DNA of 64,000 nucleotides from Nemopilema nomurai. Taxonomy: Eukaryota; Cnidaria; Scyphozoa; Rhizostomeae; Rhizostomatidae. Location of the stretch: the NCBI GenBank assembly GCA_003864495.1, contig ML133472.1:1123469-1187468 (forward strand). Direction: 5' to 3'. Positions 54,262 to 63,819 of the stretch are shown here, piece after piece. The first letter of the stretch is position 1, and every line of letters begins with the position of its first letter. The position numbers and the translations under genes were made by a program. The notes below the pieces were generated by a model. That model saw only the letters and a list, made by a program, of their open reading frames with translations. It had not been told where the DNA came from and searched no databases.

Positions 54262-55130
54262 ATGGCCGTAGAACTAATGGGCCCCCTTTTGCATCAAATC
54301 AACAGCACACTACCAAAGAGTAGCCAGGAAGAATCATTCCGTCGGATGATCTCTGTTTATGGGCAGCGTTACTCTTCTGAAGGGGATCTTCTATCCCTCT
54401 TGGATAGGCTAGTCGACGAAGAGAAGATAACTCCCACCAACACATTTGCACTAGAACATTGTCTATCTGAAAATTTGACTTTGAAGGAAAATCTTGGGAA
54501 TATTCTGAAAGGCTTTCGTAGCACAAAGAAACAGGAAATTAAAGAATGGAATGAATATCAGCCAGCGGAATTTATAAAAAGGGACTTAAGTTGGCTTGAA
54601 ACGGCATTTGGAGAGAGGTCATGTGTTGTAATTTGGGGTAGGTCAAAACAGGGACACTTTGTACTCCAAATTTCATTTACATACACCAACAAGCAAAGAA
54701 GTGTTGATAATTTTTCACATCCTTGACTTTGAGGTTGTATAAATGGAGCCTGTTTGAACATGTAATCTGTACTTCAAATGCCTAAAGTTAATTTAGTTGC
54801 CTTCATTCTTGTGGAAATTCCTAGTTTTATTATTGCTAGTAAATTTTTTTGTAGTTTTAAAGCTGAAGCATTTCTTCAATAGTTTCGATTATTTTAGAAA
54901 AAGGAAGGTCGGAGTAAGTAAAAAGGAAGTAAAAAGAAAGATAAAATCCCACGAATTTAGAATGATCTTTGGCAAATCTTGGCTATTGAGATACCTGCTA
55001 CATTTGAGTGATAAGCAAATCTGATTTTGTTTATGATGATAAAACTTTTGGTTGAATTCGCCAAAGCATATTCTTTTTTATGAGCAGCTTCTCTTGAAAA
55101 TAGCTTTCTTGATAGTGCAATGAAAACATG

Positions 55131-55196
<66 letters not shown>

Positions 55197-55382
55197 TTAT
55201 ATATTATATTAATTATTATATTGCTGTCTAGAGTGCTCAACTTGTCGGAGCAATAAGTTTGACTAAAATAAATAGACTATTGTGACACAACTCTGAGTTT
55301 CATGTGTAAACAATCATCAAGTGTCTAAAAGAAATCGCTGATGAAACTCAGAGTTGTGTCACAATAGTCTATTTATTTTAGT

Positions 55383-55427
<45 letters not shown>

Positions 55428-58400
55428 TTTGAAAACATTTCAAATAGTTGTTAAATTTGTTTGTTTTTTTGTGAATATTCATCCTTTTTCTAGTATATTT
55501 AATGTTGTACTGCATAAGAAATAAGCATTTTATCAGCAGATGAAAACCATTATTTTATCTAGTAGCATGAGGGGAATCAATAGCATTTTTATGGTGTTTG
55601 AACATGTGCTTCTGAATAGAATATTCAAGTTTGGAAATCTGATATTAAAATGCTATCTATTAAAGTAATTACACAGAAACATCATCACTAAGACTGTTAA
55701 GACTTTTTATGTTTGGTGTCCTTATTACATAAACAAAACAACAGAATGAGCAAAACTTCTTGGTTATTGTGCATCCTCTATTCATACCATCTTCATTCAC
55801 CATGGAAACAATCTTTTTTAGGTGTGTCTGGTGTGGGCAAGACAAAGTTAGCAAATGAATTCATGGTCTCACAGAGGGAGAGGCAACATGTTATTGTTGA
55901 TTTGAGGGGCCTAAACAGTGTTCAGGCGTTGTGTGTTGAAACTCTGCGCAAAATAGGAAAGATAGTAAGTATAGATGATGCAACAATGATGCTTGTAGCA
56001 TCTGTGCTAGCAGAACAGATGTCAACTAATCATATGATGCTTTTGTTTGATAATGCAGATGATTTTGTGCATTATTCTGGTGTTGGTGAGGACATGACTA
56101 AAAATTTTGCTAGTCTTGTGCAAAATATTCTTTTAAAGTCAGCAGGCAAGTTGAAGATATTAATAACATCAAGAAGCAAAAGTGATCACCCAGAATCTGA
56201 AAAGTTTTTGCATCAAAAGGAGCTTCATGCCTTGAAAAATGAAGAAGCTAGTTACATTTTGAGGTCCACATTTGCTCGCAAGCCTGATGAGAGACAAACA
56301 AGCTACTTCCAGAAGCAATCAAGCAATGTCAAAATTTGCCTTTGAATCTAAAGATTCTAGGCTCTGCTCTGCTAGATCAAGGCATTAGACTAGCAGACAT
56401 TTTGTCAGATGTTACTCGTAAGGCAAGGCAGTGGAAGCTAAGTAGTAAAAAGGGAGAGGCTCCCTTATCAGAAGCAGAATCCCTTACATATGGTGTGTTG
56501 GCTGCAAGGTTCGAGAGCCTTAGTGATACTACTCAGTTGAGTGCAGTGGCTTTGTCGCTCTTTGCTAGATCTTTTTCATTTGAAGCTGCAGTTGAAGTTC
56601 TGAAGGAGTTTGAAATTTCCAAAGTACATTTGATTTTGGAGCACCTGAGAGGAACAAACTTTGTTAGTCTTGAGTCGGACAGTATGAATGATGAAATTGA
56701 TCGAAAGTATGATATTCATCCAAAGGTGAAAGAATTTTTGTTAGAAAATATTAGCTATTCAAAGGAAGTTTCCAGCTTTTATAACAGAGCTAAAGGTAGA
56801 TTCATAAGTTTCTTTAATAAGAAACTGGACTCCATTGGCCAGTATATTGATAAAGACTATATGCGGGCATGCACAGAATATCAAGAAGAGAGCTCAAATT
56901 TTGATTTCATTTTCAAGCAAGCAGGAAACGACCTGGTATTGCTTGGCAGTTATGAGAAAAGTCAACGAGTTCAACTCCTTTTTAATGGAGTGTTGCTACC
57001 AGAAAGAAGGCTTGAATACTTCAGAAATCTTGCAGATACAGCCTTTAAGCATGGTATGTTGAATGTTAACTTGGTTATCTAATGCTTGAAAATTTGGCTT
57101 TTGGAAAGGGTTTGATGACACAAAATTAGAGCAACTTTTTCATGATGTAATTAGCCAGAATATTAATGCTTTGATTGAAGGGAAGAGAGTAATATGCATT
57201 CATGTTCTCCACTCACCAACCATTGATTTCAAGCTATTTTCGAATTTGCTGTTTGTTATAAGGGTTTTTCTGATCATACCCTTAAGTTCTAATAAAGTCT
57301 ATTTGTATTTGCTAACCCAAAATGAATTATCTCTTGAAGGTCTTCTAACAAATTAGTAAAAATGATTTTGTTTTAGGGTGTTTCTGGCAACTCAAGTGGT
57401 TTTATTTTTGATGGCTAACTGTTGAGCTGCAGTATCAAGCCTTTTGAAACTAGGCATTTCTCACTACTTCAGAATTCCAAAGTATTTGTGTTTATCTAGG
57501 AGCTACTTTTTGTGAATAGGGATTTAAATGAGTTCTTCAAAAAATTGGCATTGACAAACCTATTGATTTTCCTTCCAAGGTGATCACTTTCTTGGCACCC
57601 AGTATTTAAGTTGGCAGGGAATGGAAGAAAGTTTTCTCGACCCAATTAAAGCCCTAAAGTACACGGTTCTCAGGATTGAACACCAGGTTATAAAGCTAGA
57701 AAGAAAGTGTTTAGTAAGAGATGAAAGGAAGTATACTCAAGTGAAAGCACTTTACCATTACACCCTTGGTCATGTTCTCTATAATGTCATACATTCAAAC
57801 ATGTCTCTAGATGATTGTGATGCAGCAATAGAATCGCTATCGGAAAGTTTGCATTTAATGGAATTGCTGGAACCACAAGGACATATAGATACTGTTCGAG
57901 CTTATATAACTTTGGGAAATATTTACAATATTGAAGAGGATATTTTTCGCAGCAACGAAAAGTTTGATGATATCAACGAAGCATTAGATAGAGCTTTGGA
58001 CTATTACAAAATGGCATTGGATATGCGAGAACGCTTATCGTCACGGAGGCTGCACATAGATACGCCGCAGATACTTCAAAATATCGGATCGATTTGGTAT
58101 GAGCGGTGTCGAATTAAGAAAATGTTTGGTGAAGATTATACGGAATCTTATCAGAATGCAGAAATGCTACTAAAGGAAGCCATCAACATGGAGAAAGATT
58201 TGAAATTGTACGGACTATATAGAACCAGCTCAAAACTTATTAATTTGGGGGATCTGTACAGAATCCAAAAGGAGTATGACAAGGCAGTCGAATGTTTCAC
58301 AGAGGCATTAGGTATCAGGCGTTCCTCGAAAGGTGATCACAAAGACACTGTCCTTGTGATTTATCGGCTGGCAGTAGTGAAGGACACCATTGGAGAGTAT

Positions 58401-61400
58401 GCAGAAGCTGTCCGTTACTACAAGGAGGCTTTTGAAATGGAGGAGAGTCTCCCCGTAGACTTTCACTCAGCCGTTAGAAGGGACATTTGGAAATATCTCA
58501 TAGAGGCCTATGGATATTGGGAAGATATGGAATCGAATCCGCCTGAAAAGTTACGAATTAGAGGGGAAGCGGAAAAATTTAGAAAAAAAATACTGCAGAT
58601 TGTAAGTACTTTAACACTTTTTTATAAGAATTAAGACTATAAGAATGTCGAGCCTCAAATTTGCTAAACTTTAAGAGTAATTTATGAATAATGCCAGGCT
58701 AAATCTTCATCAATACTAGAACTTTTCCGTAGTCTATATATATGTACGATATGTATATATAAATCAGTATTATATCTATATGTATATATAAACAAATAAA
58801 TATTTATATATTTACATATATACACAAATATAGGAAAGATACCAAAAGAGATGCAATGTTTTTCTTTGATCTTAAGGCAAATTTACACCTTGTGTTGGGC
58901 AAGAATGATTGAAGGATAATTTTAGGCTCAAAATCGAATTTTTTTTATAGTATTAAGGCTCTGAAAAAAATTATAGGTATTCTGATAAAGAGAGAGTGTA
59001 AGCCTATCATGGCCAAAGGTTTTATCGACATAGTACTCTCAGCGAACCCTCGCGGAAAAATGTTAAAAATTTTGGTGATCTCAGTGGTAATTTTTCGCTG
59101 TAGGATGTTTAAATTTGAATTTGAAAGTATCGTGTTTATACTTAAGTATAAAGTCTTATTGGTAATTGAACGGTAACGTTCCATAAGAGAACGGTTAAGT
59201 TGAATTCACACTGGACGCATCATTTATGCAGACGTTTCTTAAAGAAAAATAGGAACGAGCAGCTTTGTATGAAAGTTATGGGCATGAACGTCAAGGTCAT
59301 TACAACAACTGGACCTAGAAAAGAATTTAGAAATCAATCGATGTATTTGAAGTATTTACACAATCTCGAGGTCACCAAATCTGTACGTCTGTATAAGTAT
59401 CAAATCTGGAGATAGTTTTAATTGTGTTACATTTCGTGAAATCTGCTCTGTATTTCGTATTTGGTGGCCATTGCGGTTGAGTTGATTTTTAATCCAGAGC
59501 TCTGGAGTATTCTTCAGTCTGCAAAAACTCTTGATTTTTAGAAAGTGTCCTTTTGTTTTAATTCACCTCTTGACTATCATGGCTTCTAATTTCTAGAAGA
59601 AGGATCAGGAGGAAGTAGAAAAGCGGAGTGAGTGTAGTTATTTTTTTAGCCTTGCACATGTTATATCTTTTTTGAGTTCTTCTTATCAGTCCAGTCATCT
59701 TCGTAGAAACAGTTGATGTTTTCTTTTTTTAAAGCCCAATTTATTGAACTGCAAACCTTTAAATGATTGGGAAGAGAAGACGTGATTCAAACTTGCAGGG
59801 CAACATCAAAATCGCAAATATTGAATTGCGTCTCGGATTGTGGTTGTGTAAAACACGGGGATTTCTTCACCTTTCATATCAGCCAGCAAATTGGTTTTGA
59901 GAGTCACAACGATGTACCTGAAAGACAAGTTTAATTGTGCCTAATTTAATTTTTGTCCGGTTTGTAAAACGCTTCCAAGCAAATTCTTTCACCGAATTTT
60001 TTAAAATGTAGAATTGCTAATTATGATCCTTAAATCTGTTTCTTCAGAACCAACGGGAACTCCACCACATCGGGAATTTATTGCACAGGGGTCCTCTTCT
60101 GGAGGAATTGATATCCGTTCTCGGTGAGGAATCACCATTTTTTAAAAATATTATGTGTGTTTGTTCTCGTTGTAAAAGTTACTGCTTTTGCTATAATTTA
60201 TGGAAAGAACATTTGGATAAGAACACTTAGAATCTTGAAAGTCATTGTTATACTTTCGATTTTTGTTGCTGGTATTATAAGATAGGCTTTTTTTATACGT
60301 TCATGGCAGGCTTTCATTCTAGTTTTTGCCCTCTTCTTGGTATCTTTTGTTATTTATTTTTCATTGTTATCAATTTGCTCTCTCTCCTTCTCACGTCCGA
60401 TTTTCTTACCTTAACAAGTGCTTTGTGGTACTGAACTTCACAATAGCTAGAAATAGTGGAACCAGTTTTGGCATACTTAAGGTACCTTTTCGTCAGACAC
60501 TCCTCAGAGTATGCCAACGTCTGAAAATGACCAAAAGCTGACAGAATAAATAGCCAGTTGTAGATGGAAAACACTAGAGGCGGTAAGAAGAGCCTATGAT
60601 TGGTTATAATTGACCAATCGCCTAACTTGACGAATGAAGGTACGAAGTGGTCATTTACAGCCAATCATGCGCTCTTCTTACCACCATCTAGTGTTTTCAA
60701 TCCGGAAGCTTTTGGTCATTTTTCGACCTTTGCATGCTCTAAAGGGGTCGGCAGGAAAGTAACTCTATTTTTTTACCTTATTTCCTCAACTATTCTTTAT
60801 CAACATGTCATCACTTCTGAACTCATTTGCTTCTAAAAGGAGTCTTCACTTGGAGCTTGATTCTTCAAGTGTGCGCCTGTCAATCCCTAAAGATCTGGCT
60901 CTGGATGAAAAGATGACAGAATTGGCAGTGATTCCACCAGATCGATATGAATTGTTTGGACAGAATCTCATGAGCGAAGTGCTTGGATTTGGTACCCATC
61001 GTTTTTTGGGGAAAACCTTGGACGCTCCTGCTTTTTTGGAAATACGCAGTGAAATTTTGAACTCCAATTTAGATGATTCTTCAGAAATTTGTGTTCTGCA
61101 GTACGACCCTGTGTCAAACCATTGGGATAGGGTTGAAGACATTGTCGTTGTGCCTGAAAAATATTGTGAGTGCTGTTATCGGTCATTAGCTTGAATCTAT
61201 CGTTCTGTAGAACTGGCTCACAATCGCAAGGTTGAAGGCTCTAGGTTAGTCCTCTTTTCCGAACTCTTGCTAAGATTCTTTCGCAACGTTGAATTAAGAA
61301 GCATCGTGGATTAACTTTTAACGTCTTATTCCAAGCAATTAACAAAGTATCTAACAGCGGCAATAGAATAATAACTGACATCCAGCTTCTCATTCGTTGT

Positions 61401-63819
61401 GTATTGTCAGTGCCACTAAGCTATCTAAATATTGGTTTTAAAACACATGCGAGTTTTCAAGTATTTCACAAAGTTCTAATCTTTCCTGATATTGGTGTCC
61501 TTTCTTTAGATTGGTTTGATAGAAATGATTCAGTTTCGACAGTATACGCTTGGGTTTCAAGATGTACGTATTACCGTCTCGCTGTCCAACCCAAAGTACA
61601 TACGTTATCTGTACCAGTGGCAGGCACAATTTGGAGATCATGGCAGGACCAGAAACTTGCTTTAGAATTCAAGCCAGGAACTTTCAGTGAGACAGCTGCT
61701 TGCCACGTCAAAGTATTTATAGACCATACTGTATTCGCTTCCTCATACTGCATTCGCTTTCTCAAACTGTGTACGCTTTTTCGAATTGTGTTCGCTTGCT
61801 CAAACCGTGTTCGCTTGTTAAGACTGTTTTCGCTTGCTCAAACTATATTCACTTGTTTAAAGCATGTTCTCTTGCTCAAACTATGTTCGCTTGCTCAAAC
61901 TTACTCGCGTGCTCAAACTGTGTTCGCTTGCTCAAACTTACTCGCGTGCTCAAACCGTGTTCGCTTGTTAAGACTGTTTTCGCTTGCTCAAACTATATTC
62001 ACTTGTTTAAAGCATGTTCTCTTGCTCAAACTATGTTCGCTTGCTCAAACTTACTCGCTTGCTCAAACTGTGTTCGTTTTTTCAAATTGTATTCGCTTTT
62101 TCAAATTGTTTCTGCTTGCTTAAACTGTGCCCGCTTGTCCAGACTGTTTTCAAGTGCTCAAACAATGTTTGCTTACCAAGCCGTGTTTGCCAACAGACCC
62201 AGCTTCTATTGCTCAAACTTTGTTTTATTGTTCAGACTGTTTCTCATCTCAAACAGCGCTCATTTGCGATTTCACGTGAGTTTTGAGCCGAGAAGGGTAG
62301 TGGCTGGTTGTCGTTTTCTGGAATTCTTAACCTGTTATTACCAACTTGTTGCCCGCATAATTCGACAGTCATTTCTTAAAAGAAAATGTTACGTAGATTC
62401 AGCAAATATATTATATATTATATTATATTATGTTATATAATATGATTAATATAATATCATAATATAATATAATATAATATAATATAATATACATATATAA
62501 TATAATAAATATATATAATACATATAATATAATATAATAATATAATATAATATAATATAATATAATATAATATAATATAATATAATATAATATAATATAA
62601 TGTAATATAATATAATATATATTATCAAGAATATAATTGTTTTCTCTTTCCGTTCCCTCGTTTTTATAGTCTAGTACCATGCTTCACCAAATGCCGACCA
62701 ACATTCTGTTAATAATTCTAGGTCCTTGCACCTCAGGTTCGGATAAGCGCAAAGAGCGGGGTCCTGGTGACGCCTGCAGTTAACGTCCAAATATCGAAGC
62801 ACCTTAACCACCCAGTTTTGCTATCATTGCCATTTGTTGACGGATATTCGGAAGCATGCAGCACATTGAGGGTCATAAAGCTGCCTGATGACGCCTATGC
62901 AGAACAGGGAGTCGACAATGCAGAGTGGGAAGAAATCGATGTTCCATGTACATTAGACAAAGCACGCGGAATAGTGTCGATTGAAGTAAATTCTTTCTCC
63001 TGGTAAGATTCGGTTGATGGTATAAGTTTTGGCAACCAGACAATGTAAACTTATGGATTTCTTTACAGACAATAAGGAATGACGTATTTATTTGTGATTC
63101 TGTTTGTCAGCTATTTGCAAAACAGCAGTTTAGAAGGGGTTTTTTGAAACCTCTGACGTAAAGACCAAGATCTCTACCTGTGTAGAGAAAATTCATGGGT
63201 AGTGGGTAGTGGCTTTTAGATAATGGTCAATCGTTTTTCATCGTCCGCCTTTCTCGTTTTGCTGTTGCCAAGATCCCTTTGTACCGCGTCTTTGTATGTT
63301 TCATCACCTCTGTGAGCACAAGCAAAAGCCGCAGATACCCAGGCAATGCCGTAGCATTTGCACTCCACGTGAACTGATTTGACCAGGCTGCTCTTAGTGT
63401 TACTCCGTCACTCTACGCCTCAGAGTGGTCAGCTTTTAATGAACACTCCTAACAAAAATGTCGCTAACATATTTGTGGATATCCTCGTGCATTCACGTAC
63501 AAATCTTCTTCAATAGGCTATGGGTTGTAGGCACGCCCGTGGACTACACGCTTGCAGCTCTCAAAACGCTGTTGTCCTCGCTGTATCGTGGTCCAGTTTA
63601 TGATTCTGTGTTCCATCTGTACCGGGGTTTGCAGCAACTGGACCAGCGCGTTATTGCTCTTGCCTGCGCAAGGTTTGACGTCATCCCCAATGTTGATAGC
63701 CGCTACACGCTGGTTGACAGTGCGCCTTCCCAGAAAAGGCTTCTTGATTCAGAGAAAATTACAGTCAAGGTAGAAGGACAATTTATCAACACACGGACTG
63801 ATAAAGAAGACACAATAAG
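54262..63819 (+). CDS. Death-fold/NB-ARC/TPR/ZU5-ZU5-UPA protein (NLR-PIDD-like), 3' partial
   Basis: Ten exons: 54262-54637, 55822-57053, 57580-58601, 59597-59627, 60048-60123, 60840-61165, 61510-61712, 62722-63002, 63517-about 63819; phases agree at each junction, and the gene runs past the window (nine exons visible by this listing). Exon 1 encodes a death-effector-like N-domain (GDLLSLLDRLVDEEKITPTN). Exon 2 encodes an NB-ARC ATPase: P-loop GVSGVGKT (126-133), Walker B LLFDNADD (about 199-206), ILITSRS, and LPLNLKILGSAL. Exon 3 is TPR repeats (KLINLGDLYRIQKEYDKAVE, GEYAEAVRYYKEAFEMEE). Later exons give a first ZU5-like domain (VRLSIPKDLALDEKMTELAV), a second (HTLSVPVAGTIW...VNSFSW), then a UPA-like region (SLYRGPVYDSVFHLYRG). 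ZU5-ZU5-UPA is the PIDD1 order, where a death domain follows; here that would lie beyond 64000. It is probably a cytosolic sensor or scaffold for innate immunity or apoptosis. A -1 frameshift in exon 2 (about 56285-56345) is an anomaly: allele, pseudogene or sequence error. Confidence 0.82.
55133..55191. repeat. (TA)n microsatellite
   Basis: About 28 TA units in intron 1 of the NB-ARC gene, left of a perfect inverted repeat. Confidence 0.95.
55261..55383. mobile_element. Perfect 43-bp inverted repeat, MITE-like hairpin between TA tracts
   Basis: Arms 55261-55303 and 55341-55383 are exact reverse complements (left arm begins gactaaaataaatagactat; right arm ends atagtctatttattttagtc), separated by 37 bases. 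TA tracts lie on both sides (55133-55191 and 55388-55421), suggesting insertion into, or expansion of, a TA target. It is in intron 1 of the NB-ARC gene. Confidence 0.9.
55388..55421. repeat. (TA)n microsatellite, second tract
   Basis: About 17 TA units immediately right of the 43-bp inverted repeat. Confidence 0.9.
60437..60757. mobile_element. MITE-like element, copy 2
   Basis: Same family as 33652-34192. The left arm has ttcacaatagctagaaatag, caaaagctgacagaataaat and gaaaacactagaggcgg. The right arm (about 60665-60757) has the reverse complement (accaccatctagtgttttca, gatccggaa-like, cttttggtcatttttcgacc). It is shorter inside than copy 1. It lies in the intron between exons ending at 60123 and starting at 60840 of the NB-ARC gene. 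Confidence 0.82.
61725..62250. repeat. GCTCAAAC minisatellite with a higher-order duplication
   Basis: Tandem 14-20 bp units of the form gttcgcttgctcaaactgt. A block of about 110-155 bp including ttcgcttgttaagactgttt and cacttgtttaaagcatgttc occurs twice (near 61808 and 61961). It lies in the intron after 61712; the long frames across it are repeat products, not genes. Confidence 0.9.
62405..62622. repeat. (TATAA)n microsatellite
   Basis: Mostly 5-bp tataa units over about 215 bases in the same intron as the GCTCAAAC minisatellite. Open frames coding YYIIL repeats on the minus strand are artefacts. Confidence 0.95.

Follow-up and report, generated by a model that had tools for sequence, protein, structure and literature searches.

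A scyphozoan gene that joins an NB-ARC/TPR receptor half to a divergent ZU5-ZU5 module and a candidate UPA-like region

Tandem ZU5 domains followed by a UPA domain and a death domain (DD) are found in ankyrins (ZU5-ZU5-UPA-DD), which carry ankyrin repeats, have a scaffolding role and lack a nucleoside triphosphatase (NTPase), and in PIDD1, where they follow leucine-rich repeats (LRR-ZU5-ZU5-UPA-DD) and are accompanied by an HFS motif. In NLRP1 and CARD8, the FIIND, composed of one ZU5 and a UPA, precedes a CARD, and both proteins are reported to undergo cleavage at SF/S, for which the second serine is required and histidines are important (PMC3210808). Published work also describes cnidarian NACHT or NB-ARC receptors with TPR repeats (PMC7642931, PMC4083563, PMC2246300), NACHT-ZU5 proteins of cnidarians and sponges (PMC8260672, PMC12909245) and the combination of TRADD-N with UPA-ZU5 (PMC8195603). 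The protein considered here differs from these cnidarian NB-ARC/TPR and NACHT-ZU5 receptors in having NB-ARC, TPR and two ZU5-like domains in a single protein. Its gene is found in the jellyfish Nemopilema nomurai, in a 64,000-nucleotide stretch (henceforth the window) of contig ML133472.1 (assembly GCA_003864495.1, positions 1,123,469 to 1,187,468, forward strand).

The gene lies on the + strand, extends from its first base at 54262 to a stop about 4.1 kb past the window end, and comprises 12 exons and 11 introns. Each of the 11 introns has GT-AG borders and agrees in phase, and the joined product of the 12 exons has 1552 residues. A homologue search over 5.8 billion proteins, in which 7989 candidates were scored, gave two hits among the matches listed. 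One is full length, namely the uncharacterized protein LOC135689943 isoform X2 of Rhopilema esculentum (1584 amino acids), which covers 100% of the query at 55% identity (884 identities in 1613 aligned columns); the other (P0002) has 14% coverage and carries TPR models. A search with only the C-terminal portion of the protein from Rhopilema recovered nothing besides that protein itself (1 of 6140 candidates). The order of parts is the same in the Rhopilema gene model, and therefore each of the two jellyfish has both halves in a single gene model. This full-length relative and the profile comparison given below support the view that one + strand gene unites an NB-ARC/TPR sensor half and a ZU5-ZU5 module, as had been proposed, along with the agreeing intron phases, in a first-pass annotation made from the nucleotide letters and their open frames. 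On balance, we lean towards reading the product, some 1550 amino acids long, as a STAND receptor of a scyphozoan, in which the NB-ARC/TPR half is joined to a divergent ZU5-ZU5 and probably UPA-like part serving as the output half. No NB-ARC-TPR-ZU5-ZU5 protein was found in the accessible literature on this architecture. The general idea of an NTPase joined to ZU5 is not new because NACHT-ZU5 proteins have already been published.

Exon 1 (54262-54637; 76 of 125 residues shared with Rhopilema) supplies the start methionine, an N-terminal helical region and the lead-in to the P-loop. It is followed by exon 2 (55822-57053; 66% identity), which encodes the NB-ARC/STAND NTPase, and exon 3 (57580-58601; 65% identity), which encodes the TPR repeats. 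A linker is specified by two small exons that fit in phase, exon 4 (59597-59627; 3 of 10 residues identical) and exon 5 (60048-60123; 6 of 25, the lowest conservation). The bulk of the first ZU5-like domain is in exon 6 (60840-61165; 39% identity), its end and the start of the second ZU5-like domain are in exon 7 (61510-61712; 60% identity), which fits in phase and without which the phase is not kept, and the bulk of the second is in exon 8 (62722-63002; 30% identity overall), with SFSW at its end. Exon 9 (63517-63819; 54% identity) provides the first part of the UPA-like region. The first-pass outline of these exons is correct within the window, including the small ones at 59597 and 60048. 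Beyond 63819, where exon 9 ends, the gene runs on in three further exons past 64000, at 64513-64654, 65091-65415 and 67782-68125 in the coordinates of the extended window, the last of which contains the stop. By exon, identity to Rhopilema is 61-66% in exons 1-3, 54-62% in exons 7, 9, 10 and 11 (62% in exon 11) and 24-39% in exons 4, 5, 6, 8 and 12. The ZU5-like exons 6 and 8 (39% and 30%) are much less conserved than exons 2, 3 and 11 (62-66%), a pattern that could reflect conflict-driven change or weak constraint. Two introns have repeats: intron 1 contains an inverted repeat at 55256-55388 (arms of 48 nt, 98% complementary, with a 37-nt spacer) that looks like a small transposon remnant, and intron 7 contains about 24 copies of a 19-bp tandem repeat (61728-62174), followed by an AT-rich array (62405-62619).

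The NB-ARC and TPR assignments were borne out by Pfam in the Rhopilema protein, in which NB-ARC reaches 25.9 bits (cut-off 23.5) and TPR_12 reaches 50 bits (cut-off 30.1). In the window pieces, TPR_12 (73.4 bits, cut-off 30.1) and AAA_22 (36.3 bits, cut-off 27) pass. Exon 2 also specifies the motifs GVSGVGKT, LLFDNADD, LITSR and DIHPKVKEFL, of which we take the first to be the P-loop and the last to belong to the winged-helix. No LRR was seen in Pfam scans of the window pieces and the Rhopilema protein. The DED label given to the N-terminus in the first-pass annotation is not supported: the Pfam DED model scores 15 bits, below its cut-off of 35.9, the gene is not listed in a genome-wide DED search at E 1, and profile comparisons of this region with CARD, DED and DD exons of the same genome were equalled by 58, 46 and 10 of 60 shuffles, respectively. 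Elsewhere in the genome, a Death-domain exon and an NB-ARC exon share a strand, the former 2.2 kb upstream of the latter (C9:772936-775643), the two perhaps forming a Death-NB-ARC receptor gene, and another long NB-ARC/TPR receptor frame is open for 1215 amino acids (C122:478128-478856).

The likeness of both ZU5-like domains to those of PIDD emerges from per-domain hhalign comparisons, albeit crosswise: the first matches the second ZU5 of PIDD with a score of 27.3 and the second matches the first ZU5 of PIDD with a score of 21.3, none of 60 shuffles being as high in either case. These are two of the three comparisons, among 30, in which no shuffle scored as high, the third being that of the UPA region with the first PIDD ZU5 (ZU5a). 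The 30 comprise a first set of 9 with 60 shuffles per domain pair, 15 with 40 shuffles for the three remaining domains and 6 with the genome's own death-fold exons, the second ZU5 (ZU5b) against the second death domain being left out; the PIDD alignments had at most five rows, and only two (P0003, P0004) beyond the middle of the UPA, death domains included. The presence of two divergent ZU5-like domains is supported by this comparison and is consistent with a low-confidence structural model built with PIDD rows; as a Pfam assignment, the claim did not hold up (see below). A PIDD1-like gene is present separately at C61:297221-304000 of the genome, with LRRs (by eye), two ZU5 domains, HFS after the first and Death, and a PIDD1-like protein is also present in Rhopilema (P0003); because of this separate gene, the NB-ARC/TPR-ZU5 gene is not the PIDD1 orthologue. 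The ZU5 and Death exons of the PIDD1-like gene have a second, seemingly haplotypic copy with identical scores at C167:113464-117883. Like PIDD1, the jellyfish receptor has two ZU5 domains in a row and, after them, a candidate UPA-like region, but it has an NB-ARC/TPR rather than an LRR sensor, no HFS and no detected Death domain. Given that the UPA is only suggested, that neither ZU5 is followed by HFS and that the C-terminal exons have no Death match, the initial label of a PIDD-type ZU5-ZU5-UPA module was too strong.

The suggestion of a UPA domain after the second ZU5 comes from a MAFFT alignment that, by eye, lines this region up with the beginning of the PIDD UPA; the hhalign score of exons 9-10 against the PIDD UPA is 14.95, a value reached by 4 of 40 shuffles, so that the UPA-like region of the first-pass annotation stands as a candidate by register and not by Pfam, pairwise or shuffle scores. 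Genome-wide UPA and FIIND profile searches gave no match anywhere and are uninformative since the PIDD1-like gene is also without a match. The two C-terminal exons after the UPA-like region have no recognised fold. Exon 11 resembles a CARD by eye, and its comparison with CARD exons of the same genome is weak, being matched by 5 of 60 shuffles; Pfam in both species and a genome-wide CARD_2 search at E 1 found no CARD for this gene. Likewise, no Death domain was found by Pfam in the Rhopilema protein at E 10, the gene is not among the 19 matches of a genome-wide Death search at E 0.01, and 17 of 60 shuffles equalled exon 11 against the Death exons of the same genome. The death-fold exon comparison used 18 of 20 fetched exons, one CARD and one DED hit being excluded. 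Death-fold labels are accordingly not supported by these profiles, and the death domain that had been sought past 64000 has no match in the C-terminal exons.

Several results weigh against the receptor reading and concern both of its halves. NB-ARC in the window's own pieces reaches 14.4 bits, below the cut-off of 23.5, probably because a frame break cuts the domain, and the gene is not in the list of a genome-wide NB-ARC profile search at E 0.1. The break, at 56289-56291 on the + strand inside exon 2, was overlooked when the agreement of the intron phases was noted; it lies in the assembly between the open frames 55701-56345 and 56291-57082, which are out of phase with each other. Of 35 formal introns that would bridge them, six are GT-AG (41, 62, 65, 110, 131 and 134 nt), and every one of these would cost the protein the stretch SYILRS, kept as SCILKS in Rhopilema. 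For the C-terminal half, Pfam scans of the joined pieces, of single exons and domains and of the Rhopilema protein gave no ZU5, UPA, FIIND, CARD or Death, the HMMER filters discarding most matches above E 0.1. The like-for-like ZU5 pairs with PIDD are at the null level (19 and 16 of 60 shuffles as high), and the whole C-terminal hhalign against PIDD has a probability of 0.5%, a separation appearing only in the per-domain comparison. The Rhopilema C-terminal model has a mean predicted local distance difference test (pLDDT) score of 44.7, below 50 in the UPA, and its fold is partly imposed because four of the eight rows of its alignment are PIDD proteins. It matches ankyrin ZU5-ZU5 chains, the nearest solved fold over the ZU5-ZU5 part, with low Foldseek template modelling (TM) scores of 0.27-0.38 by query length; exon 8 was excluded from the second structure alignment because MAFFT had misplaced it. 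When PDB sequences were searched, the C-terminal half matched 0 chains and its two-row profile gave one chance bacterioferritin match (E 0.41). The UPA region scores higher against PIDD ZU5a (18.1 over 13 columns, 0 of 40 shuffles as high) than against the PIDD UPA, which we take to be chance or fold-level likeness, and pairwise UPA tests are at the null level. Finally, no histidine is common to the two jellyfish proteins in residues 916-1365. Two further attempts were set aside: a single-sequence AlphaFold model of Rhopilema residues 925-1584 (mean pLDDT 32) was dropped, and the PIDD alignment was of no use as a PDB query, its LRR part dominating (the best stretches of the best 60 of 459 matches are at profile positions 10-168).

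We attribute the break in exon 2 to an error of assembly, to an allele or to a recent lesion, among which the assembly cannot decide because protein-level searches of it found a single copy of the gene, with no close second copy. Its position in the middle of the NTPase exon, and the loss of residues kept in Rhopilema with any of the six GT-AG introns across it, would fit a decaying or segregating null copy in the sequenced animal; we regard this as unlikely, as the remainder of the 12 exons is open with no other stop, 883 of the 1552 residues are identical to the Rhopilema relative, and an assembly sequence error at one position is equally likely. The alternative that two neighbouring genes, one for an NB-ARC/TPR receptor and one for a ZU5-type protein, were merged in the models of both species draws on an in-frame ATG at 60805 (35 nt upstream of exon 6), on read-through of the TPR exon to a stop at 58634, with AATAAA at 58795, and on the weak conservation of linker exons 4 and 5. 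Yet the phases agree in all 11 introns, the same joined product is seen in Rhopilema, in gene models in both cases, and the linker is short in both species, making such a merger quite improbable in our estimate.

The remaining alternatives concern the output half and its possible cleavage. At the end of the first ZU5 stands RCT in the present gene and RFT in Rhopilema, and the second ends in SFSWLWV in both species; HFS, the type of site that the first-pass annotation proposed to look for after each ZU5, is present after neither. The SFS, judged by sequence, fits CARD8 and NLRP1 better than PIDD, and its placement at the ZU5/UPA junction depends on the weak UPA call. The order of parts, too, is nearer to NLRP1 than to PIDD1: NTPase, repeats, ZU5-(UPA) and an SFS at the junction are shared features (PMC11508797, PMC3210808), and the differences lie in NB-ARC/TPR versus NACHT/LRR, two ZU5 domains versus one, the want of a shared histidine near the site and the undetected CARD. 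The C-terminal module could be pictured as resembling a FIIND that cleaves itself and signals through the C-terminal piece thus set free, in the manner of NLRP1 and CARD8. The junctional SFS of both species, like the SF/S site of CARD8 and NLRP1 (PMC3210808), and an order of parts similar to that of NLRP1 (PMC11508797) speak for this. We nonetheless consider it doubtful: the important histidine of CARD8 has no shared counterpart in the jellyfish proteins, Pfam and the CARD_2 search detect no CARD, and the exon 11 comparison is weak. Efficient self-cleavage is doubtful because of that missing histidine; the SFS that separates the second ZU5 from the UPA-like region may be cleaved, though probably not efficiently, and the kept SFS may be structural. 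A related and speculative idea, to which we give little weight, is that the protein is a jellyfish counterpart of NLRP1 put together from other parts, with NB-ARC/TPR, ZU5-ZU5-UPA and a CARD-like end, independently of the vertebrate NACHT/LRR/FIIND/CARD series, in which case the SFS might be a conformational hinge or a slow cleavage site.

Under the reading that we prefer, that of a STAND receptor with a ZU5-ZU5 output half, the NB-ARC nucleotide switch and the TPR repeats would form the sensing and oligomerising half. The TPR half would most likely sense a ligand or stress, whereupon the NTPase would oligomerise and gather the ZU5/UPA-like modules into an assembly platform, which we propose by analogy with NLRP1 and CARD8, where the UPA is reported to promote self-oligomerisation (PMC7794386). 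The output half would consist of the divergent ZU5-ZU5, the probably UPA-like domain and then the two C-terminal exons. The analysis itself establishes the gene structure, the orthologue, NB-ARC, TPR and the resemblance of both ZU5 domains; the UPA, the oligomerisation, this output and any link to cell death are what we infer for the protein. If the C-terminal half works like that of PIDD or NLRP1, an oligomerising nucleotide switch would be wired directly to ZU5 signalling in an early-branching animal. Such a route would differ from that of the vertebrate inflammasome sensors, and would offer one gene, in two jellyfish, for testing the order of sensor, switch, ZU5 and output.
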